From assembly GCF_009764685.1 (NCBI RefSeq), contig NZ_VHLM01000084.1:1-64000 (forward strand): a stretch of 64,000 nt of DNA, written 5' to 3'. A program made the position numbers and the translations under genes. This DNA comes from Flavobacterium sp. I-STPP5a. GTDB lineage: Bacteria > Bacteroidota > Bacteroidia > Flavobacteriales > Flavobacteriaceae. Each line of letters opens with the position of its first letter. Within the stretch, counting starts at the first letter, position 1. Positions 7,209-33,244 of the stretch are shown piece by piece. The notes under the pieces were generated by a model. That model searched no databases. It was not told where the DNA came from and saw only the letters and a program-made list of their open reading frames with translations.

Positions 7209-7312
7209 TTTGTTTTGAAAAAAAAAGTAAAATAATTTTATTTGTAACCATAAGATTATGAATATTTTATAAAATAATTCAAAATTATCGTTATTTTTTT
7301 TCAAAAATACAC

Positions 7313-7342
7313 TTGTATAAACCAAAAAGAGCCTTACATTTG
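7313..7342 (+). promoter_or_regulatory. Promoter of tRNA-Ser copy 1
   Basis: TTG at 7313-7315 and TACATTTG at 7335-7342 are separated by 19 bases, an excellent fit to the flavobacterial TTG-N17-23-TAnnTTTG promoter. The tRNA begins 33 bases after the -7 box. Confidence 0.75.
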
Positions 7343-7368
7343 CAGTCGAATTCAGCTAATGAAATCGA

Positions 7369-7469
7369 CATACTGGAGAAATGGCAGAGCGGTCGAATGC
7401 GGCAGTCTTGAAAACTGTTGACTGTAACAGGTCCGGGGGTTCGAATCCCTCTTTCTCCGCGGAATTAAA
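7369..7469 (+). repeat. 101-bp direct repeat containing tRNA-Ser, copy 1
   Basis: Identical to 17830-17930, including six bases before and ten bases after the tRNA. The flanks diverge immediately outside, including the promoters and terminators. See the finding on the segment between the copies. Confidence 0.9.
7375..7459 (+). tRNA. tRNA-Ser (anticodon TGA), copy 1
   Basis: An 85-base tRNA with acceptor arms GGAGAAA and TTTCTCC, discriminator G, anticodon loop CTTGAAA with anticodon TGA, a long class II variable arm and a T-loop TTCGAAT. The 3' CCA is not encoded. A second identical copy lies at 17836-17920. Confidence 0.96.
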
Positions 7470-9956: not shown

Positions 9957-10090
9957 CTACGTCAGTTTGTACGTTCAGGCTTGGGTGGGCGTTTCCCGCC
10001 GAAAAAGGCGGGTCGGGCTGTACGCTATATCTTTTGTTCCGCTAGCGCTACACAAAAGGATGCCGCTTCCATCCCTAACGCACAATGTTA
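9957..10090. repeat. Dispersed flavobacterial intergenic repeat
   Basis: The stretch runs through GGCGTTTCCCGCCGAAAAA and CGGGCTGTACGCTATATC to GGATGCCGCTTCCATCCC. It carries two hairpins, including CTTTTGT...ACAAAAG around a CGCTAGCG core. A related unit occurs at 24549-24655. It is far more GC-rich than its surroundings and does not encode a credible protein. I recall similar repeats in flavobacterial genomes. Confidence 0.6.
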
Positions 10091-10119
10091 TTAAGTCAAG
10101 GAATTACTCTTTTAGTTTT

Positions 10120-17568: not shown

Positions 17569-17773
17569 ATTTCAGAAGCCTTAAAAATTCACTATTGTAA
17601 ATATTTTGCGTTTTCATTTCGAGACTCCCCTTCTAGCATCTCGGTAGTAATCCTATTTTCTTCGATAAGTCTAAAGACGCAAAATTCGTGGTGTTTTTTT
17701 GTTTTAAAAAATTAATCAGTATTCTGCATTTCTATTTTAAAATTCTTTTTTTTAGTAAAACCATAAAAGAATA

Positions 17774-17803
17774 TTGCATATTCGAAAAAACTTATTATAT
17801 TTG
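17774..17803 (+). promoter_or_regulatory. Promoter of tRNA-Ser copy 2
   Basis: TTG at 17774-17776 and TATATTTG at 17796-17803 are separated by 19 bases, the same spacing as in copy 1, yet the sequence around them differs. The second copy is therefore probably expressed. Confidence 0.75.
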
Positions 17804-17829
17804 CACTCGCAATCAAAAAACGAAAGCGG

Positions 17830-17930
17830 CATACTGGAGAAATGGCAGAGCGGTCGAATGCGGCAGTCTTGAAAACTGTTGACTGTAACAGGTCCGGGGG
17901 TTCGAATCCCTCTTTCTCCGCGGAATTAAA
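17830..17930 (+). repeat. 101-bp direct repeat containing tRNA-Ser, copy 2
   Basis: Identical to 7369-7469. The distance between the copies is 10,461 bases. Confidence 0.9.
17836..17920 (+). tRNA. tRNA-Ser (anticodon TGA), copy 2
   Basis: Base-for-base the same as the tRNA at 7375-7459, with intact acceptor, anticodon, variable and T arms. It has its own promoter and its own terminator. Confidence 0.96.
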
Positions 17931-22568: not shown

Positions 22569-23591
22569 ATGATTTTAGGACACGGAGACGACGGTTACTT
22601 ACATCACGACACCATTAAAGCGAATTTCAGTTCGAATGTTTTTTACGAAGGCCTTCCTAAAGGTTTAAAGGAATTCCTATCGCTGCAATGGGACAGGCTT
22701 AATCGTTATCCAGAAGCAAATGCCGAATCGCTTCAAGAATTAATAGCCCATTGGCACCAACTGAAACCCCAACAAATACTTATAACAAATGGGGCTACCG
22801 AAGCTTTTTATTTGATTGCACATCACTTACAAAAAAAATCGGCCACTATAATCATACCTTCATTTGCTGAGTATGAGGATGCCTGTCGTGTACACAATGT
22901 ACCTGCCGACTTCATGGAATGGTCTGCAGTAAACGACACTACCCGTTTTGATACCCAAGCCGTTTTCTTTGGCAATCCAAACAATCCTACGGGCTTGATT
23001 TTTGAAAAAAAAATGCTTCATTCCCTTTTAGAAAACAATCCCAATGCACTGTTTGTAATTGATGAAGCTTATGTAGATTTTACATCGAATGTGATTACAA
23101 TGGTAAACGAAATCAATACTTTTCCAAACCTTGTACTCGTAAAATCCCTGACTAAAACCTATTCCATTCCAGGTTTGCGTTTGGGATATATCATCAGCCA
23201 AGAACAAAATATTCAAGCCATACAATTGGCAAAAATGCCTTGGTCTGTAAACACTTTGGCTATTGAAGCCGGTAAATTTATTGTAAAAAATGCCGTCGAT
23301 ATTGCGTTACCATTAAATAGATTATTGTCAGACACTTCAGACTTGATGCATTCCTTACAGCAAATAAAAAACATTGAAGTCTATCCCACAACAACTAACT
23401 TTTTTTTGTGCCAAACAAAAGTAAAAACTGCCGCAGCGCTAAAACAACACCTCTTGAATGCCCATCAATTACTGATTAGGGATGCTAGCAATTTCAAAGG
23501 ACTTTCTCCTCATTATTTTAGAGTTGCAACACAAACACCTGAGCAAAATCAACTTTTAATCGATGCTATACGCCAATGGACACTCCTTTAA
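22569..23591 (+). CDS. cobD: L-threonine-O-3-phosphate decarboxylase-like aminotransferase
   Basis: A 340-residue fold-type I PLP enzyme of the HisC/CobD group. The PLP lysine is Lys196 in SLTKTYSIPGLRLGY, with NPNNPTGLIF and IDEAYVDF upstream. In the cobalamin pathway it yields (R)-1-aminopropan-2-ol phosphate, attached by CbiB. Sequence alone could also suit histidinol-phosphate aminotransferase, but the position between cbiP and cbiB, with pduX in the same operon, favours CobD. Its end overlaps cbiB by 16 bases. Confidence 0.87.
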   Translation: MILGHGDDGYLHHDTIKANFSSNVFYEGLPKGLKEFLSLQWDRLNRYPEANAESLQELIAHWHQLKPQQILITNGATEAFYLIAHHLQKKSATIIIPSFAEYEDACRVHNVPADFMEWSAVNDTTRFDTQAVFFGNPNNPTGLIFEKKMLHSLLENNPNALFVIDEAYVDFTSNVITMVNEINTFPNLVLVKSLTKTYSIPGLRLGYIISQEQNIQAIQLAKMPWSVNTLAIEAGKFIVKNAVDIALPLNRLLSDTSDLMHSLQQIKNIEVYPTTTNFFLCQTKVKTAAALKQHLLNAHQLLIRDASNFKGLSPHYFRVATQTPEQNQLLIDAIRQWTLL

Positions 23592-24520
23592 TCACTTTCT
23601 TAATACCTTTATTTGTAGGCTACCTACTCGATTTGCTTTTGGGAGACCCAAGAGGATTGCCTCACCCTATTCGGCTTTTTGGAAATGCAATATATTTTGG
23701 CGAAAACCTATTAAACAAAGGTAAATTTCGCTTTGCAAAAGGAATCACACTCACACTTGTTCTATGCAGTTTGGTCTTTGCATTCTTTTATTTACTGTCT
23801 AACATCTTGCTACAAATCAACACAATTCTTTATATCATTTTTGCCAGTATTTTTGTTTTTTATGGTCTAGCCAATAAAAGCCTGATACAAGAAGGAAAAG
23901 CAGTTTTTGATGCACTTCAAGACAACGGATTGGAAGCGGGTAGAAAACGACTTTCTTGGATCGTAGGACGCGATACCACTACCCTAAATGAAAACCAAGT
24001 ACGAACAGCCGTTTTCGAAACCTTGTCCGAAAATTTAAGTGATGGAGTAATTGCACCTCTTTTTTATTATGCCATTGGTGGCTTGCCCGCTATGATGGCC
24101 TATAAAATGATCAACACCCTAGACTCCATGATTGGATACAAAAATGAAAAATACTTTTATTTTGGCAAATTTGCTGCTCGCTTAGACGATGTTGCCAATT
24201 TCATTCCCGCACGTTTAACTGCATTATTAATGATTATCTTGAGCGGAAAATGGAGTCTTTTTTCATTTGTTCATCAATTTCGCAACCAACATGCCAGTCC
24301 AAATTCAGGCTATCCCGAAGCAGCATTGGCAGGAATCATGAATTGCCGCTTTGGCGGTCCCAATACTTACCACGGAAAAATTGTAAATAAGCCGTACATA
24401 GGAACAAATGATAGGAAAATAGAACATCAAGAGATAATCAGAGTTTCTAGGATTAACCACAAAGTTACTATACTCACTATCATAATTATAACAATTATAA
24501 GTGTTTACATAATTGGGTAA
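23576..24520 (+). CDS. cbiB: Adenosylcobinamide-phosphate synthase
   Basis: A 314-residue inner-membrane protein that joins aminopropanol phosphate to adenosylcobyric acid. Signature parts are GYLLDLLLGDPRGLPHPIR at the start, IVGRDTTTLNENQV in the middle, NLSDGVIAPLFYYAIGG, and SPNSGYPEAALAGIMN near the end. Several membrane helices are visible. Overlap with cobD by 16 bases indicates translational coupling. It is the last gene before the riboswitch. Confidence 0.95.
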   Translation: MDTPLITFLIPLFVGYLLDLLLGDPRGLPHPIRLFGNAIYFGENLLNKGKFRFAKGITLTLVLCSLVFAFFYLLSNILLQINTILYIIFASIFVFYGLANKSLIQEGKAVFDALQDNGLEAGRKRLSWIVGRDTTTLNENQVRTAVFETLSENLSDGVIAPLFYYAIGGLPAMMAYKMINTLDSMIGYKNEKYFYFGKFAARLDDVANFIPARLTALLMIILSGKWSLFSFVHQFRNQHASPNSGYPEAALAGIMNCRFGGPNTYHGKIVNKPYIGTNDRKIEHQEIIRVSRINHKVTILTIIIITIISVYIIG

Positions 24521-24548: not shown

Positions 24549-24655
24549 CTAAGCTTGAGGCATTTTCGGAGGTATTGGTTCCCGCTATACACAAGTATCT
24601 TTTGTGCCAAACCCTGGCACAAAAGGATACTTGCTCCTATCGGGGCTAAAAGGTA
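24549..24655. repeat. Dispersed intergenic repeat with long hairpin
   Basis: The core CTTTTGTGCCA...TGGCACAAAAG (about 24600-24625) is a perfect stem, extended on both sides by GTATC/GATAC with one bulge. TTCCCGCTATAC precedes it and a CCTATCGGGGCTA tail follows. It is related in plan to the repeat at 9957-10090 (CTATA, CTTTTG, CAAAAGGAT). It could also terminate the cbiB transcript. Confidence 0.6.
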
Positions 24656-24773: not shown

Positions 24774-24781
24774 TACTTTTG
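24774..24781 (+). promoter_or_regulatory. -7 element of the riboswitch-controlled operon
   Basis: TACTTTTG fits TAnnTTTG and lies a few bases before the predicted riboswitch, which would put the start of transcription at its 5' edge. No clear -33 TTG is visible. Confidence 0.55.
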
Positions 24782-24785
24782 CCGC

Positions 24786-24990
24786 TGTAATGGTTTTCTT
24801 TTTAAAATATTAAGAAGAAATTAAAAGGGAATTCGGTGTAAATCCGAGACAGTACCCGCTGCTGTAAGTTTTATTAAGGTTATAACATTATGTCACTGTT
24901 TCAATCATGGAATGGGAAGGCGTTATCAACTGAAACGAGTCAGAATACCTGCCTTTACGTCGATTCGTAGCTTTCGGAGTAAAGGCAAAC
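24786..24990 (+). promoter_or_regulatory. Cobalamin riboswitch
   Basis: The conserved core is present: GGGAATTCGGTG, then AAATCCGAGACAGTACCCGC and TGCTGTAAG, then GTCACTG and GGGAAGGCG, and the B12 box AGTCAGAATACCTGCC at about 24937-24952. A perfect 8-bp hairpin (24951-24958 with 24980-24987) overlaps the end of the B12 box and could be part of the regulatory switch. It precedes the ferredoxin/TonB-receptor gene. When adenosylcobalamin is abundant it should reduce expression of the receptor and, through read-through, of the long corrin operon. Outer limits are approximate. Confidence 0.93.
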
Positions 24991-25084
24991 GGGTGAAATA
25001 ATCTTCTCCTTTATCTTCACGCGTCCTTATTCTATTGTTGCAAATAATCGGTTAACGGGATTATTAACGCACAAATAACTTAAA

Positions 25085-27706
25085 ATGGAAAAGGATTTAT
25101 CCAAAATTAAAAAAATTATTTACCTCTGTAATGGTACTTCATGTACAAACAAAGGCGCTGAAGAAAACATTACTGCCCTCCGTAATTCTCTAACTGAACG
25201 AGAATTAAATGACGAAATTCACACCATAAGGACTAAATGCAGTGGTTTTTGTAAACAAGGCCCAATCATAAGCATTCAGCCAGAAAACACGTGGTACAAA
25301 GAAATGAATGTAACCACATCAAATGCTGTAGTTGCTACTCATATTTTAGAAAACACAATTCTCGAAGACCAATTGTTGTTTTCTTCGAGTAATAACGCCG
25401 AGACCTTTAAACCTCAAAAAAGAAAGAAAAACTTCTTTACAAAGTATTTTTCATTCAAACTTTTTTTTTTGCTGTTAATATCTTTTTTTAAAACGCAAGC
25501 ACAAACTAACCTTAGTGGTTTTATTACAGATGCCAACAATCACAGTAAAATTGAGGGCGCAGCCATTCAGATAAAAGAATCTAGCGAGAACACTATTTCT
25601 ATTGATCAAGGGGCATATAAGCTACCATCTGTTTCAGAAGGAATAAAAACAATTATTGTTTCTTGTGAAGGTTACAATACGTTTAGTCTAAAAATAAATT
25701 TAAAAAAAGACGAACAAAAGAAGCTCAATATTGCCTTGCAAAGTAATGCAATGAACTTGGCCGAAGTTACTATTTCAACTTCACTAGACCGAAAACAACT
25801 AAACAAAATAGATCAGTTAAGCCTGCAACTGCAACCCATAAAATCAGCTCAAGATTTGTTGCGTGCCGTTCCCGGATTGTTTATTGCACAACATGCAGGT
25901 GGAGGAAAAGCCGAGCAAATTTTTATTAGGGGGACAGACAACGATCACGGAACTGATTTTAACATTCAAATGGATGGAACTCCGGTAAACATGCCTTCGC
26001 ACGCACACGGACAAGGCTATGCCGACATGCATTTTATGATTCCAGAAATAATTGGTTCTGCTAACTTTTACAAAGGACCTTATGAGGCAAAACTGGGAGA
26101 TTTTTCAGCCGCAGGTGCTGCCCAGTTTAACTCAAAATACCGTTTAGAAAAAAATGTTATCAAACTAGAATCTGGTATATTTAATACCCAAAGAATCTTA
26201 GCTATGGTTCAGCTTTTAGATCAAAAACATTTGGTTTCAAAATGGAAAGACAATGCGTATGTGGCTACTGAGTACAACTATACCGATGGCTTTTTTGATA
26301 GTAAATTAAAATTCAAACGTTTTAATGTTTTCGGGAAATACAATGCACAACTATCCGATAAAACAACGGCTACACTCTCAGGCTCTTATTTTAATAGCAC
26401 CTGGAACGCTTCGGGACAATTGCCATTGAGAGCTGTAGAGGATGGATCTATTTCTAGATACGGCTCTATAGACGATTCCGAAGGCGGAATTGCGTCAAGA
26501 CTAAACGCAAACTTAGTCATTGAAACCAAATTTAGCGATGCTGCATCCTGGAGAAATCAATTGTATTATTCTAAAAACATCTTCGATTTGTTTTCTAATT
26601 TTACTTTTTTCATGAACGATCCCATCAATGGAGATGAGATATTACAATGGGAAAAACGAGATTTATTCGGTTTAAAAAGTACATATAACAGACTTGACAA
26701 CATTGGTTCTACAAAATTATCCTCTGAAATAGGATTGGTTACCCGTAGCGATATTTTTTCAATGGGCAGAAATCACGTATTGAGAAGGGAATTTCTAAAC
26801 ACCGAAGATCACAATAAAATACGTATTTCAAATTACAGTTTTTATATCGATGAAAATTGGCAGTTTGCACCCAAATGGGCTTTGACATTAGGTGCTAGGA
26901 ACGAAGTCTTCGATTTTTATTTGAATGATAAATTAGACGACTCCAATTCAGGACAAAAAACCGTGTATCGCTTTAACCCGAAAGCACAGTTAAACTTTAA
27001 TGCAACATCAAACTTCACTGTTTTTGCCAAATGGGGAGTTGGACTTCACTCCAATTACGCTCAAACCGCAGTGAGCAAAGACCCAACAGCCGGAAATCCT
27101 GTACCACTATCCGAAGGTGCTGATTTGGGTTTTATAATGAAATTGCATAAAAAATCAATCTTCAATTTCACAGCATGGCGCCTTGATACAGGATCTGAAT
27201 TTAAATTTGTATCTGATGATGGTAGCTTTGAAAACTTGGGACCAACGAGAAAATATGGTTTTGATGCGGCAATCAAAATTCAATTTACAGATTACTTGTG
27301 GGCAGATAGCAATTTGAATTACGCCTACAGCATTTTGAAAGACGCAAAAAAAGGCGAAAACTTTGCACCATTAGCTCCTAGATGGAACTCTACAGGCGGA
27401 TTGACTCTGAAATTAGAAAACGGAATTAATGCTAGTTTGCGGTACCGTTTTATGGGAGAACGTCCTGCTATCGAAGATGGATCAGTATTTTCTGCACCTT
27501 ATACCATCGCAGATGCAATTATCCGATACACCAAACCCCGATATGAAGTATCTCTTTCTGCCGAAAACATTTTCAATGTAGCATGGGCAGAAGCCCAGTT
27601 TTATGATGAATCTCAATTAAAAAATGAAACCGCTCCCGTAATGGATTTTCACAACACTCCGGGGACTCCTTTCTTTATCAAGGCGAGTGTTTCTTATTTC
27701 TTTTAA
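25085..27706 (+). CDS. [2Fe-2S] ferredoxin domain fused to a TonB-dependent receptor
   Basis: One 873-codon frame. Residues 1-100 are a thioredoxin-like [2Fe-2S] ferredoxin with Cys15, Cys20, Cys52 and Cys56, a cytosolic-type domain. Residues 112-142 look like a signal peptide (basic KRKK, hydrophobic core, QAQ cleavage site). Then come a carboxypeptidase-regulatory-like beta domain (about 143-215), a His-rich plug (HAGGGKAEQIFIRG, NMPSHAHGQGYADMHF) and a 22-strand-type barrel ending in an aromatic residue (SYFF). No ATG lies between about 25323 and 25530, so a separate receptor would have to start at TTG 25373 or 25376. A T10 run lies inside the signal-peptide part (25461-25470). The next gene is a NiCoT-like permease, suggesting uptake of cobalt or a corrinoid. 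Confidence 0.85.
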   Translation: MEKDLSKIKKIIYLCNGTSCTNKGAEENITALRNSLTERELNDEIHTIRTKCSGFCKQGPIISIQPENTWYKEMNVTTSNAVVATHILENTILEDQLLFSSSNNAETFKPQKRKKNFFTKYFSFKLFFLLLISFFKTQAQTNLSGFITDANNHSKIEGAAIQIKESSENTISIDQGAYKLPSVSEGIKTIIVSCEGYNTFSLKINLKKDEQKKLNIALQSNAMNLAEVTISTSLDRKQLNKIDQLSLQLQPIKSAQDLLRAVPGLFIAQHAGGGKAEQIFIRGTDNDHGTDFNIQMDGTPVNMPSHAHGQGYADMHFMIPEIIGSANFYKGPYEAKLGDFSAAGAAQFNSKYRLEKNVIKLESGIFNTQRILAMVQLLDQKHLVSKWKDNAYVATEYNYTDGFFDSKLKFKRFNVFGKYNAQLSDKTTATLSGSYFNSTWNASGQLPLRAVEDGSISRYGSIDDSEGGIASRLNANLVIETKFSDAASWRNQLYYSKNIFDLFSNFTFFMNDPINGDEILQWEKRDLFGLKSTYNRLDNIGSTKLSSEIGLVTRSDIFSMGRNHVLRREFLNTEDHNKIRISNYSFYIDENWQFAPKWALTLGARNEVFDFYLNDKLDDSNSGQKTVYRFNPKAQLNFNATSNFTVFAKWGVGLHSNYAQTAVSKDPTAGNPVPLSEGADLGFIMKLHKKSIFNFTAWRLDTGSEFKFVSDDGSFENLGPTRKYGFDAAIKIQFTDYLWADSNLNYAYSILKDAKKGENFAPLAPRWNSTGGLTLKLENGINASLRYRFMGERPAIEDGSVFSAPYTIADAIIRYTKPRYEVSLSAENIFNVAWAEAQFYDESQLKNETAPVMDFHNTPGTPFFIKASVSYFF

Positions 27707-27725
27707 CATAAAGACTATCCCAAAA

Positions 27726-28523
27726 ATGGAACTTCTAAATAACAATTTATCTGCATTGCTCATTTTATTTATTTTAGGTTTGCGTCACGGTTTAGATCCG
27801 GATCACATTACGGTAATAGACAATTATACCTATCGTTTGCATGAAAATAAAAACACTTGGTCAAGATGGGTTGGAACATTATTTACTTTCGGCCACGGTG
27901 TGATGGTTACCCTAATTGCATTAACGCTTAGCTACCTTAAAAATCAATTTGAAGTTCCTTCTTGGGTTGATTTTTTACTTAATTGGGTACCTATGACTTT
28001 ACTATTCATAATGGGAATTGGAAACATCATTTCTTTATCGCAAGCTAAAAATGGTAATTCCTTGAGTATCAAAAAACACCTCATCCCTAAATTTTTAGAC
28101 CAAAATTTAAACCCATTTACGGTATTCTTAACGGGGCTTATTTTCGGATTTATCTTTGATACTTCTTCTCAAATTGCCGCTTTTGGGTTAGCAGTTTCGG
28201 GAACACATCATTGGTTATTTTCGGTTATCGGTGGCCTTGTTTTCTCTATCGGATTAATATTTACAGGAACCATCGACTCGTTTTTATTAAGTAAACTGTT
28301 AAAAACATTCGACCAAACCAAAATTCAAAAGCACCGCTTTAAGTTAAATATACTAATTACGGTAATGTGTTTCATTATACCTTTTTATAAAATAGGAACC
28401 GTATTTAAACCCAATTTAGAACTTAACGATTTTCAAAATAACTTAGTAGGACTAGGATTTCTTGGGACAATTCTTTTCCTCTATTTCGATTTGTATCTGC
28501 GTTCTAGAACAAAAGCTATCTAA
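27726..28523 (+). CDS. NiCoT-like nickel/cobalt permease
   Basis: A 265-residue membrane protein with the metal-binding helix GLRHGLDPDHITVIDNYT, equivalent to the RHAxDADHI signature of NiCoT transporters. About seven to eight hydrophobic helices follow, including FGHGVMVTLIAL and IFGFIFDTSSQIA. The ATG at 27726 is chosen because it places the metal motif at residue 22; the frame overlaps the receptor end if started at 27687. Context in a cobalamin operon makes Co2+ the likely substrate. Confidence 0.85.
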   Translation: MELLNNNLSALLILFILGLRHGLDPDHITVIDNYTYRLHENKNTWSRWVGTLFTFGHGVMVTLIALTLSYLKNQFEVPSWVDFLLNWVPMTLLFIMGIGNIISLSQAKNGNSLSIKKHLIPKFLDQNLNPFTVFLTGLIFGFIFDTSSQIAAFGLAVSGTHHWLFSVIGGLVFSIGLIFTGTIDSFLLSKLLKTFDQTKIQKHRFKLNILITVMCFIIPFYKIGTVFKPNLELNDFQNNLVGLGFLGTILFLYFDLYLRSRTKAI

Positions 28524-29470: not shown

Positions 29471-30259
29471 ATGAATATAAAAGACCCCAAAATAATTAAT
29501 ATCAGTATTGTTGGTTCAGGGCCAGGTGATCCAGAATTGCTTACTGTGAAAGCGGTTAAGCGAATTCAGAATGCCGATATTATCTTGCATGACAATTTAA
29601 TTTCTGATGAAATTTTGAATTTGGCTTCCGCCAATGCTCAAAAAATATATGTAGGTAGAAAATTTGGAGACATAGTAGATTCGATGACACGTCAAGACAC
29701 TATACACGATTTGTTTCTTAAATACGTGCACCAAAACAAAAAAATTGTTCGCCTAAAATCAGGGGATTCGTTTATTTTTGGGAGAGTAGCCGAAGAGATT
29801 CGCTTTTTAACGGATCACAATATTGATTTTGAAGTTATTCCGGGAATTACAGCAGGAATGGCTGCAGCCAACTCCCAACATATTCCTCTTACCGAACGTA
29901 ATAAAACCAATTCAGTCCTATTTTGTACTGGTCATACCGCAACGTACGACTTTGAACAGTTGGACGCATTGGCAAATATGCTTAAAACAGGTACTACGCT
30001 CATTATGTACATGGGCTACAAAAATTTGAATGAAGTAATCGGTACTTTTAAAAGAATTACACCTGATGAAACATTATATATTTCGGCAATTTCGAAAGTA
30101 TCACAAGCTGATGAAACAATTTTTACCGGTACTTTAGAAGAGATGGAGGACAAACTTAAACTAGAAACAATTCCAATGCCCGTTGTTTTTATAGTAGGAA
30201 AACATGCATTTCCAATTGATACTAATATAACTAAAATTTTAGAAGAGAATGAATACTAA
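29471..30259 (+). CDS. cobA: Uroporphyrinogen-III C-methyltransferase
   Basis: A 262-residue SAM-dependent methyltransferase that makes precorrin-2 from uroporphyrinogen III, the entry to the corrin branch. Motifs are GSGPGDPELLTVKAVK near the start, VRLKSGDSFIFGR, PGITAGMAAA and ATYDFEQ; all are standard for SUMT. It is not fused to HemD or to a CysG-type dehydrogenase. It overlaps cbiX by 11 bases. Confidence 0.95.
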   Translation: MNIKDPKIINISIVGSGPGDPELLTVKAVKRIQNADIILHDNLISDEILNLASANAQKIYVGRKFGDIVDSMTRQDTIHDLFLKYVHQNKKIVRLKSGDSFIFGRVAEEIRFLTDHNIDFEVIPGITAGMAAANSQHIPLTERNKTNSVLFCTGHTATYDFEQLDALANMLKTGTTLIMYMGYKNLNEVIGTFKRITPDETLYISAISKVSQADETIFTGTLEEMEDKLKLETIPMPVVFIVGKHAFPIDTNITKILEENEY

Positions 30260-31187
30260 AAAAGGAATTTTAATTTGTGGACATGGAAGCAGAGATCCAG
30301 AAGGTGTTACTGGATTCAAGGAATTAGTACGTCTCTTAAAAATACGTTATCCCAATTATGAAGTTGATTATGGTTTTCTTGAATTTTCTCATCCCGTTTA
30401 TGCAGCTGCAGTAGAGCGTTTGTATACTAATGGAATCCGCGAAATTATTGCTATTCCTGCCATTCTTTTTGCTGGCGGACATGCCAAGAATGACATTCCA
30501 TACGAAATGAATGCGCTTCAAAGTCAATATCCAGATTTAAAGATTACTTTGGGAAAACACTTTGGCATCACGCCATCCATATTACAGCTTTCTAAAAAAC
30601 TGATAGAAGCAACTGAATCTAGACTAACGTCATTAGACCGAAAAGAAACTTGTTTATTAGTTGTCGGTCGTGGCACCTCCGATCCTGATGCCAATTCAGA
30701 CATTGCAAAAATGGCTCGAATGCTTTGGGAAGGAATGGGTTTTGGTTTTGCAACTACAACCTATATTGGAGTTACTCAACCAATATTAAAAGATACGTTA
30801 CCATTAGTGAACAAACTGCCCTATAAACGAGTAGTGGTATTGCCTGTATTTTTATTTACAGGTGTTTTACTAAAGAAAATATATACTCAAGTTGAAGATT
30901 TTGCGAGCAACTCTGATACTGAATTTTGTTATACCGCTTCTTTTGAATGTGACGAACTGCTACTACAAACCATTGACGATCGTATTGCCGAAGTAGAGCA
31001 AGGCAATCCCAATATGAATTGCCAATTATGCAAATACCGTACACAAATCATTGGTTTTGAAAACGAAGTAGGCAAAGAACAAAAAGGACATCACTTGGCG
31101 GTAAAAGGAATTTTATTTGAAGAAGAAGAAAAAATAGCAGTCAAAAAAACACCTTTTTCAGGTTTAAGAAAACTATTAGGAATATAA
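30249..31187 (+). CDS. cbiX: Sirohydrochlorin cobaltochelatase, long form
   Basis: A 312-residue CbiX with two related halves. GILICGHGSRDPEGVTGF opens the first half and LLVVGRGTSDPDANSDI the second, as expected for the long form. The C-terminal MxCxxC motif (Met256, Cys258, Cys261 in NMNCQLCKYR) is the one linked to an iron-sulfur cluster in the Bacillus megaterium enzyme. It inserts Co2+ early, which marks the cobalt-early route. Start overlaps cobA; cbiL follows 3 bases after. Confidence 0.92.
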   Translation: MNTKKGILICGHGSRDPEGVTGFKELVRLLKIRYPNYEVDYGFLEFSHPVYAAAVERLYTNGIREIIAIPAILFAGGHAKNDIPYEMNALQSQYPDLKITLGKHFGITPSILQLSKKLIEATESRLTSLDRKETCLLVVGRGTSDPDANSDIAKMARMLWEGMGFGFATTTYIGVTQPILKDTLPLVNKLPYKRVVVLPVFLFTGVLLKKIYTQVEDFASNSDTEFCYTASFECDELLLQTIDDRIAEVEQGNPNMNCQLCKYRTQIIGFENEVGKEQKGHHLAVKGILFEEEEKIAVKKTPFSGLRKLLGI

Positions 31188-31190
31188 AAA

Positions 31191-31901
31191 ATGATAAAAA
31201 CAGGAAAAATATACGGTATCTCTTTAGGTCCTGGTGATCCAGATTTGATTACCATAAAAGGACTTAAAACACTCCAAAAATCGGATAAAGTATATTATCC
31301 TGGTTCCTTATTGCCTAATGGGAAAACAACCAGTTTCTCCTTGCCTATTTTGCAACACCACCAACTGGACGAAAAAAAATTAGTCGGAATGTTTCTCAAA
31401 ATGTCTGATGACAGAGCGCAAGCCGAAGCTACATATAGGGCCACTTTTCAATCTATGTTGGAAGATTATCATAACGGTTTAACAATTGTTTTTGTCAGCG
31501 AAGGAGACAGCTTGTTTTACAGCACTTTTGCGTATTTATTAGAACACATACAACAACACCAACTCGATGTCGAAATTATTGCTGGCGTTCCCTCCTTTAT
31601 ATTAGCAACGGCACAACACCAGTTACCATTAGCCATACTAAACGAGAAAATTGCCATCATACCAAGGGTCAAGAACAGTCAAGAACTAGAAACCACCTTA
31701 AACGATTTTGACACAGTAGTTTTAATAAAAATACGAAGTGTACTTAAAGATATTTTCCCTTTTTTGATAACAAGTGGACTGACAATTATGTATTGTGAAC
31801 GATTGGGAACAACACAACAATACATTACAACGAATATAGAAGACATTAAGAATAGAGAGATTCCTTATTTCTCTTTGTTAATTATAAAAAAGAAAAAATG
31901 A
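31191..31901 (+). CDS. cbiL: (Cobalt-)precorrin-2 C20-methyltransferase
   Basis: A 236-residue tetrapyrrole methylase. The SAM-binding start is GISLGPGDPDLITIKGLK; VSEGDSLFYSTFAYLLEHI and IAGVPSFILATA fit the CbiL/CobI group. It adds the C20 methyl group. The stop overlaps the ATG of cbiH-cbiC by four bases (ATGA), so they are translationally coupled. Confidence 0.9.
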   Translation: MIKTGKIYGISLGPGDPDLITIKGLKTLQKSDKVYYPGSLLPNGKTTSFSLPILQHHQLDEKKLVGMFLKMSDDRAQAEATYRATFQSMLEDYHNGLTIVFVSEGDSLFYSTFAYLLEHIQQHQLDVEIIAGVPSFILATAQHQLPLAILNEKIAIIPRVKNSQELETTLNDFDTVVLIKIRSVLKDIFPFLITSGLTIMYCERLGTTQQYITTNIEDIKNREIPYFSLLIIKKKK

Positions 31902-33244
31902 AACTAAGCGTAGTAGGAATAGGCCCCGGCGGACAAGAATATATTTTACCAATTGCACAATCGGTTTTGGCAGATGCCGATGTTGTAATTGGGTATCATT
32001 ATTATTTTCAATTTATAGAGCATTTGCTAAAAGAAAATTGCGAATGTATTGGAAAAGAATTAACCGAAGAAGAGGCACGAGCCGTCTTAGCAGTAAACCG
32101 TTGTGAAAAAGGCAAGCATATAGTAGTAATAAGCTCTGGAGATGCTGGCATTTATGCTATGGCATCCTTGGTCTACCAATATGCGAGCACCCAAACCGAT
32201 AAAGACATCGACTTACAAACCATTCCGGGAATAAGTGCTTTTATTGCTTCGGCTGGAAAATTGGGCGCACCGCTAGGACACGACTTTTGCTGTATCTCCC
32301 TATCCGATTTAATGACCCCTTGGACAACAATTGAGAAAAGAATTCACGCTGCAGCAACAGGGGATTTCGTTACTTCACTGTACAACCCAAGAAGTAAAAA
32401 ACGTTTTTGGCAGCTCAACCGACTCAAAGAAATTTTCTTAAAACACCGCAGTCCTACTACTCCAGTTGCAGTAATTCGTCAAGTTACACGTCCAGATGAG
32501 CACATCACTATTACCACTTTGGGCGAATTCGACACCGAAATTGTCGATATGTTTTCATTAGTTATGATTGGAAATTCACAAACCTATCAATTCAAAAATT
32601 TCCTCGTGACACCGCGTGGTTATTTGGCTCGAAAACCCCATACAGGACAGGAAATTCAAGACGAAAGCTTTCGCCAAATTGCCGAAAGTTTACAACGTAC
32701 CGACCTCCCAAGAGCAGACAAATGGGCAGTGATGCGCTGCGTACACACAACAGCCGATTTTGAATACGAAAATCTCTATTTATCGAGTAATAATGCCATC
32801 GAAAAATGGAATGATTACCTCATAAACGGAGGTACAATTATTACCGATGTCACGATGGTGCAATCTGGAATCACAAAAGAATTTACAGGAAAATACCAAA
32901 ACCAGGTACTTTGCTATCTGAATGATCCCGAAGCTACGGCACTAGCACAAAGCGAAAACATCACCCGTAGTCAAGCAGGAATCCGATTAGCATTGGCAAA
33001 ACATCCTAACGCTTTGTACGTGGTAGGTAATGCTCCCACTGCTCTATTCGAATTGTGTGAGCAAATAATAGACGAAAAATGCAAACCTGTTGGCGTGGTT
33101 GGTGCTCCCGTAGGATTTGTAAATGTTGTGGAATCTAAACTGAAATTACAGGCAATCACAAGTATTCCGTATGTTATTATCCGAGAACGTAAAGGAGGAA
33201 GTAATGTGGCAGCAAGTATTGTAAACGCAGCGTTTACATTATAA
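31898..33244 (+). CDS. cbiHC: Fusion of (cobalt-)precorrin-3B C17-methyltransferase and precorrin-8X methylmutase
   Basis: A 448-residue two-domain protein. Residues 1-240 are CbiH/CobJ (VVGIGPGGQEYILP, SSGDAGIYAMASLVY, SLYNPRSKKRFWQL), which methylates C17 and contracts the ring. Residues 255-448 are CbiC/CobH, which moves the C11 methyl to C12, with the catalytic-type His283 in CVHTTADFEYENLY and GAPVGFVNVVESK. In many bacteria these are separate genes. The domains are not neighbours in the pathway order, so the fusion probably aids co-expression rather than direct channelling. Confidence 0.93.
   Translation: MKLSVVGIGPGGQEYILPIAQSVLADADVVIGYHYYFQFIEHLLKENCECIGKELTEEEARAVLAVNRCEKGKHIVVISSGDAGIYAMASLVYQYASTQTDKDIDLQTIPGISAFIASAGKLGAPLGHDFCCISLSDLMTPWTTIEKRIHAAATGDFVTSLYNPRSKKRFWQLNRLKEIFLKHRSPTTPVAVIRQVTRPDEHITITTLGEFDTEIVDMFSLVMIGNSQTYQFKNFLVTPRGYLARKPHTGQEIQDESFRQIAESLQRTDLPRADKWAVMRCVHTTADFEYENLYLSSNNAIEKWNDYLINGGTIITDVTMVQSGITKEFTGKYQNQVLCYLNDPEATALAQSENITRSQAGIRLALAKHPNALYVVGNAPTALFELCEQIIDEKCKPVGVVGAPVGFVNVVESKLKLQAITSIPYVIIRERKGGSNVAASIVNAAFTL

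Follow-up and report, generated by a model that had tools for sequence, protein, structure and literature searches.

Outer-membrane receptors usually open with their signal peptide, and the clusters of thioredoxin-like ferredoxins are normally inserted in the cytosol. How, then, can a single open reading frame code for both? The question is raised by a locus of Flavobacterium sp. I-STPP5a in a stretch of 64,000 nucleotides (contig NZ_VHLM01000084.1; the window). The frame in question spans 25085–27706 on the forward strand, begins with ATG and runs for 873 amino acids with no internal stop. A sequence-only reading had described it as a [2Fe-2S] ferredoxin joined through a signal-peptide-like segment to a TonB-dependent receptor, all behind a cobalamin riboswitch; the frame, its Pfam domains and an RF00174 match at 24774–24970 confirm this description. 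Three explanations had been offered: a second translation start at TTG 25373/25376, a real fusion cut after synthesis, or a length change in a T10 run that joined two genes.

Architecture of the frame and its leader

The ferredoxin domain comprises residues 1–95 (25085–25369), as supported by Pfam, alignment and fold match. Pfam 2Fe-2S_thioredx (PF01257; cut-off 24.8 bits) matches residues 9–83 with 26.4 bits in the whole protein, and the first 105 amino acids alone reach 31.5 bits. Among five separate homologues, those of L124, L139 and L140 score above this cut-off and those of L128 (21.6) and L137 (16.0) below it. Cysteines 15, 20, 52 and 56, at the positions given by the earlier reading, are invariant in 20 of 20 aligned homologues. 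The AlphaFold model of the domain (mean pLDDT 75) has 1m2a_A as its best Foldseek match (E 2e-7) and also matches 5abr. In fold, size and four cysteines the domain resembles the thioredoxin-like [2Fe-2S] ferredoxins (PF01257; Aquifex Fd 1m2a/1f37, Azotobacter FeSI 5abr, and NuoE/HydB domains), the cysteines being spaced here as C-x4-C and C-x3-C. Unlike the known members, it lies N-terminal to a signal-peptide-like segment and an outer-membrane receptor, and the protein falls far below the cut-offs of the NCBIfam 2Fe-2S ferredoxin equivalogs (NF041612, 43.9 of 150 bits; NF041613, 38.6 of 195 bits). This part is a putative [2Fe-2S] binder.

A linker of mostly low model confidence (residues 96–111; 25370–25417) leads to the internal signal-peptide-like segment (residues 112–139; 25418–25501), which was recognized from hydropathy and by eye rather than by a trained predictor. 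This segment presents a KRKK stretch, a hydrophobic core and T-Q-A ahead of Q140, directly N-terminal to the mature receptor domains. The most hydrophobic 15 residues of the whole protein are 121–135. The pLDDT stays under 50 for residues 102–139, an ill-defined stretch between a fair ferredoxin domain and the receptor. The predicted mature receptor (residues 140–873; 25502–27703, if cleavage falls after residue 139) contains CarbopepD_reg_2 (143–230), Plug (241–345) and TonB barrel (423–829) matches; the plug and β-barrel domains of a TonB-dependent receptor are therefore present by Pfam, with strands in the AlphaFold model. The signal segment is here internal. Where the receptor is unfused, it opens, by eye, with an ATG of its own followed by a short signal peptide in 29 of 31 loci; the other two (L009 and L134) were not settled.

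The cobalamin riboswitch aptamer (RF00174; 24774–24970, forward strand) scores 113 bits against a cut-off of 31.5, and all 13 related named loci (L119–L131) have a riboswitch of this family ahead of the ferredoxin. Directly after the aptamer, a hairpin-like stretch seen by eye, CTTT-CGGAGT-AAAG (24971–24985, forward strand), is a candidate for the kissing-loop hairpin of cobalamin riboswitches. By eye, the 15 other leaders compared show a similar stretch past the aptamer. Sixteen bases before the start codon stands a conserved element, GTTAACGGG-N(3-4)-TTAAC (25051–25068, forward strand), an inverted repeat with a CGGG loop. It is found once in each of the 14 ferredoxin-first loci (the window and L119–L131), which come from two bacterial families; in L119–L131 it lies 3' of the riboswitch, some 10–26 bases ahead of the ferredoxin start. 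It is absent from four of four other B12-riboswitch loci, and the whole genome of the strain holds one exact match. The element may belong to the expression platform of the riboswitch, or it may offer the CCCG of the aptamer a second partner. The riboswitch would act on the start codon of the fusion. Nothing that we found supports the earlier suggestion of a ferredoxin reporting its iron-sulfur or redox status into the same mRNA.

The fusion gene is set among B12 biosynthesis genes on the forward strand. CobD/CbiB (23576–24520; Pfam) lies upstream. Downstream follow a NicO-type nickel/cobalt permease (27726–28523; PF03824, 50.6 bits, on 27687–28520), the cobalt chelatase CbiX (30249–31187; Pfam), and tetrapyrrole methylases and CbiC, including a methylase fused to CbiC (31898–33244; Pfam). 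Two Flavo-1 RNAs are encoded on the reverse strand, at 10007–10093 and at 24574–24651, the latter just upstream of the riboswitch and opposite to it in strand. Elsewhere in the window, a 166-base direct repeat (86%; 7304–7469 and 17765–17930, 10,461 bases apart) has an exact 101-base core with a tRNA gene; the two copies could flank an inserted element.

Fused and split forms in Bacteroidota

A whole-protein scan of bacterial genomes with six peptide patterns, which was not exhaustive, returned 17 loci. Comparison across flavobacteria, as the earlier reading had proposed, revealed that close relatives share the fused frame: Flavobacterium sp. ZT3R18 (L119), F. undicola (L120) and F. columnare (L121) carry an equal frame of 873 codons that aligns without gaps. 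The gap-free frame is found in all four assemblies without operon frame breaks, the window included. Two separate genes with a stop and an ATG between them, the arrangement named as refuting a fusion, were seen only in distant Chitinophaga, where on sequence comparison they look ancestral rather than a sign of artefact.

These alignments also decide the matter of the T10 run, which lies at 25461–25470 as reported. An assembly or sequencing artefact in this run, joining two genes, could be suspected because the run is longer in the window than in its relatives and the frame is broken in F. davisii (L122), F. covae (L123) and G239 (L136). The three other break-free assemblies have T6 or T7 with equal frame and length; since the run is not conserved and the frame is, the run did not create the fusion, and the T10 artefact is refuted as a source of the fusion as such. 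The three broken frames say little, as in each of these assemblies 5 of the 9 other operon genes are broken too, over more than one frame, which points to poor base calling or decay. The corresponding counts of broken genes are 0 of 9 in L119, whose first gene, CobQ, is truncated at the edge of the sequence examined, 0 of 7 in L120, where the remaining two genes were not found, and 0 of 9 in L121. For the same reason L122, L123 and L136 were dropped as split-gene evidence before counting. We hold an artefact to be extremely improbable.

The fusion is rare. A strong match to the N-terminal part was found in 4 of 398 genomes sampled from the genus (the strain itself, G056, G355 and G239), with E falling from 2e-83 to 2e-19 at the next-best match. 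Among 150 sampled relatives it was found in the strain and G056, and in samples of the family (397 genomes) and the phylum (395 genomes) in the strain only. Such rarity, together with the frame breaks in one of the four, would suit a ferredoxin that is a decaying passenger in a tolerated fusion of which the receptor alone matters. Against this stands the selection on the ferredoxin itself: its omega, where estimable, is as low as that of the receptor (0.04–0.09 in 3 of 6 pairs, dS being saturated in the other 3, versus 0.06–0.11 in 6 of 6 pairs), and its four cysteines are invariant. Both parts thus appear to be under purifying selection, and we give the passenger very little weight.

Omega is higher between the two parts: 0.26–0.56 for linker and signal segment together, 0.17–0.77 for the linker alone and 0.32–0.70 for the signal segment alone. 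When one lineage was simulated under neutrality, a 28-codon linker remained free of stops in 18% of runs at 1 substitution per site and in 16% at 1.5, and a 50-codon linker-plus-signal segment in 3.9% and 2.5%, respectively. Given these stop-free fractions, the open frame alone is moderate evidence; the missing start codons (see below) are a stronger argument than the stop-free figures for the linker alone, which are weak.

The split counterpart was found in Chitinophaga, where in 8 of 8 loci (L124–L131) ferredoxin and receptor are two genes behind a cobalamin riboswitch. The riboswitch, ferredoxin and receptor stand in the order seen in the window; the difference is two genes there and one here. 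The distance from the stop to the likely ATG or GTG is some 15–27 bases by hand count, and L128 offers a second candidate for the receptor start, an in-frame ATG farther upstream that overlaps the end of the ferredoxin gene. The order in L124 is CobQ, CobC, CbiB, riboswitch, ferredoxin, receptor, NicO, dehydrogenase-like, CbiX, CbiL and methylase-CbiC (CobQ, CobC and CbiL being putative assignments), which is that of the window except for the methylase gene at 29471. Identity to the fused parts, measured in L124, L126, L128 and L130, is 46–49% for the ferredoxin and 52–60% for the receptor; of these four loci, L128 and L130 show no NicO match in the sequence examined.

In midpoint-rooted trees the fused rows form one clade, both for the receptor (100/100) and for the ferredoxin (99/97, with a long-branch warning elsewhere in the tree). 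The fused receptor clade lies among the split rows, joining four Chitinophaga rows (89/93, not starred) with the four other split rows outside. Some Chitinophaga pairs are already in one frame, and therefore one stop-codon loss could make such a fusion. Most simply, the fusion would have arisen once, from operon neighbours. Judged by these comparisons, it is real and rare, beyond chance; it is probably under selection and looks unlike a sequencing error.

Translation and processing of the fused chain

Does the receptor keep a start of its own? The gap in ATG codons noted earlier exists: past 25290, ATGs in any frame stand at 25304, 25308 and 25323, and the next only at 25530. Codon 74 (25304) is the final in-frame ATG of the window ahead of codon 223. 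This codon is ATG in three of the four species and GTG in F. columnare. TTG codons beyond it occur at 97, 98 (25373 and 25376, as first reported) and 129 in the window, at 97 in ZT3R18 and at 121 in F. columnare; of the three relatives, ZT3R18 alone has TTG at codon 97 and none has it at codon 98. In F. undicola the frame is free of ATG, GTG and TTG from codon 75 through codon 222, and between codon 75 and the mature receptor no such codon is common to the four species. As the TTG codons vary among the species and F. undicola has no such start in this interval, a separate receptor start appears unlikely; the start proposed at TTG 25373/25376 is not supported, and a conserved TTG start was rejected.

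One frame could still give two products, the full chain yielding the ferredoxin and an internal start (codon 74, a TTG or a non-standard codon) the receptor. The four-species pattern at codon 74 (ATG, ATG, ATG, GTG) and the scattered TTG codons speak for such a start. No start past codon 74 is shared, with F. undicola having none from 75 to 222, and initiation at codon 74, inside the ferredoxin domain (Pfam 9–83), would truncate that domain and still leave 38 residues before the signal segment. Nor was a Bacteroidota-type promoter motif found within 25085–25520 at up to one mismatch. We regard two products as improbable, the least improbable of the rival readings.

Of the three explanations offered at the outset, a real fusion cut after synthesis fits best: the fusion stands by the shared frame, and the cut we infer, along with the topology. 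Loss of the ferredoxin stop codon and the receptor start codon would have turned two genes of a cobalamin operon into one, as the comparison suggests. Translation would start at the ferredoxin only. What was once the signal peptide of the receptor, lying inside the fused chain at approximately residues 112–139, would insert at the Sec translocon with its basic side cytosolic, signal peptidase I would cut after A139, and the receptor would proceed to the outer membrane. By the positive-inside rule (PMC9360617) the ferredoxin would stay in the cytosol; it would be held on the cytosolic face by the signal peptide until the latter is degraded. Both proteins would then be set by one B12-controlled start codon. 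This processing mechanism is likely. Several points weigh against the explanation: a folded domain of 95 residues ahead of the signal peptide could slow export, the linker and signal stretch evolves faster than both flanking parts, and codon 74 is a possible second start. The low scores of the BtuB models (see below) and the lack of a NicO match in L128 and L130 count against it as well.

Features of the signal segment also bear on whether the chain is cut at all. An uncut fusion would carry the ferredoxin into the periplasm or leave it attached to the receptor, and nothing speaks for it directly, the AlphaFold model showing just a low-confidence stretch between the two parts. Such a fate is at odds with the usual cytosolic insertion of these clusters and with the signal-peptide features, which are kept in all four species: the lysine-rich stretch, the hydrophobic core (whose most hydrophobic 15 residues start at 121 or 122) and A or G before Q. 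We consider the uncut fusion quite improbable, somewhat more so than two products and slightly less so than the decaying passenger.

With the cut fusion as the preferred reading, the internal signal peptide could serve as a cuttable anchor that tethers one ferredoxin to the inner membrane beside the cobalt permease for each receptor exported, so that a single B12-controlled start codon would fix cobalt import and cytosolic redox handling of the metal at 1:1. We put this forward tentatively, as a possibility on the doubtful side.

Cobalt, the ferredoxin and the biology of the locus

We likewise infer the task of the ferredoxin and the substrate of the receptor. With the NicO permease, the receptor would most likely bring in cobalt or corrinoid, and the ferredoxin would supply electrons to cobalt, or handle it, in the cytosol; no electron partner of the ferredoxin was identified. 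Taken as a whole, the explanation (fused operon neighbours, a sole ferredoxin start, Sec insertion, a cut after A139 and roles in cobalt or corrinoid supply) is, in our judgement, moderately probable.

Related ferredoxins occur in other settings. In nitrile hydratase operons, one lies directly 3' of a NicO-type gene (L137:3667–4828 and L138:3354–4476; Pfam was run on L137). The nitrile hydratase gene of both operons bears CTLCSC, a motif that we take to be of the cobalt type, and no riboswitch was found in the 12 kb around either ferredoxin. This hints that cobalt is linked to the ferredoxin type both in B12 operons and in those with nitrile hydratase. In other Flavobacteriaceae (L090–L102, L155) the ferredoxin sits within a frame of 269–307 amino acids with a C-terminal extension of ~165 residues, for which the two proteins tested (L139 and L140) gave no Pfam match. 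A B12 riboswitch lies within ~1.5 kb in 9 of the 14 L090–L102 and L155 loci versus 0 of 6 other ferredoxin loci. Ferredoxin-bearing frames of 535–674 amino acids in other genomes were set aside as hydrogenase/NuoF-type, mainly from their length; L141 (590 amino acids) and L157 (listed as 1046 amino acids) were viewed as sequence.

The receptor probably imports cobalt or a corrinoid. BtuB models score far under their cut-offs (TIGR01779, 33.1 of 599.7 bits; NF007926, 26.6 of 836 bits), and the genome of the strain holds a second B12-riboswitch receptor; for these reasons the fused receptor may serve cobalt or precursors. The second locus (L177:5265–8399) consists of a cobalamin riboswitch followed by a 617-amino-acid TonB receptor with an ordinary start, and it includes a DUF5074 gene whose protein start is lipoprotein-like. 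Receptors of ~40% identity in the same genus were not counted as orthologues; they are likely paralogues, because none of the 20 loci searched, out of 28 with 1.5 kb of flanking sequence, has a B12 riboswitch.

Among the closest described arrangements is that of Novosphingobium aromaticivorans, where a riboswitch, a TonB receptor, a NiCoT permease and CobW form a predicted cobalt system, according to PMC7689651, which also states that no cobalt-specific receptor has yet been confirmed. The locus here likewise has a B12 riboswitch, a TonB receptor and then a nickel/cobalt permease, and cobalt as the receptor substrate is a prediction in both. Here a ferredoxin is added, a word absent from the text of PMC7689651. 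Our literature search, which covered titles and abstract openings and few subscription papers, found no such ferredoxin–receptor fusion named.

A precedent for the processing is known from other proteins. Bradyrhizobium fbcH encodes a cytochrome b/c1 polyprotein that is cut at an internal signal peptide. As in fbcH, two operon neighbours are made here as one chain. A conserved frame encodes both protein parts and an internal segment resembling a signal peptide, where signal peptidase presumably makes the cut. The proteins differ from those of fbcH: the first is a small redox protein, and the second product would be bound for the outer membrane.

A receptor whose signal peptide comes after a folded cytosolic domain is an exception among outer-membrane proteins, which as a rule begin with that peptide. 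The locus offers a natural way to ask at what distance from the N-terminus Sec signals and signal peptidase still work, and the split Chitinophaga form and the fused Flavobacterium form are a ready pair for experiments. The possible tie between ferredoxin and cobalt in two settings makes the task of the ferredoxin testable.
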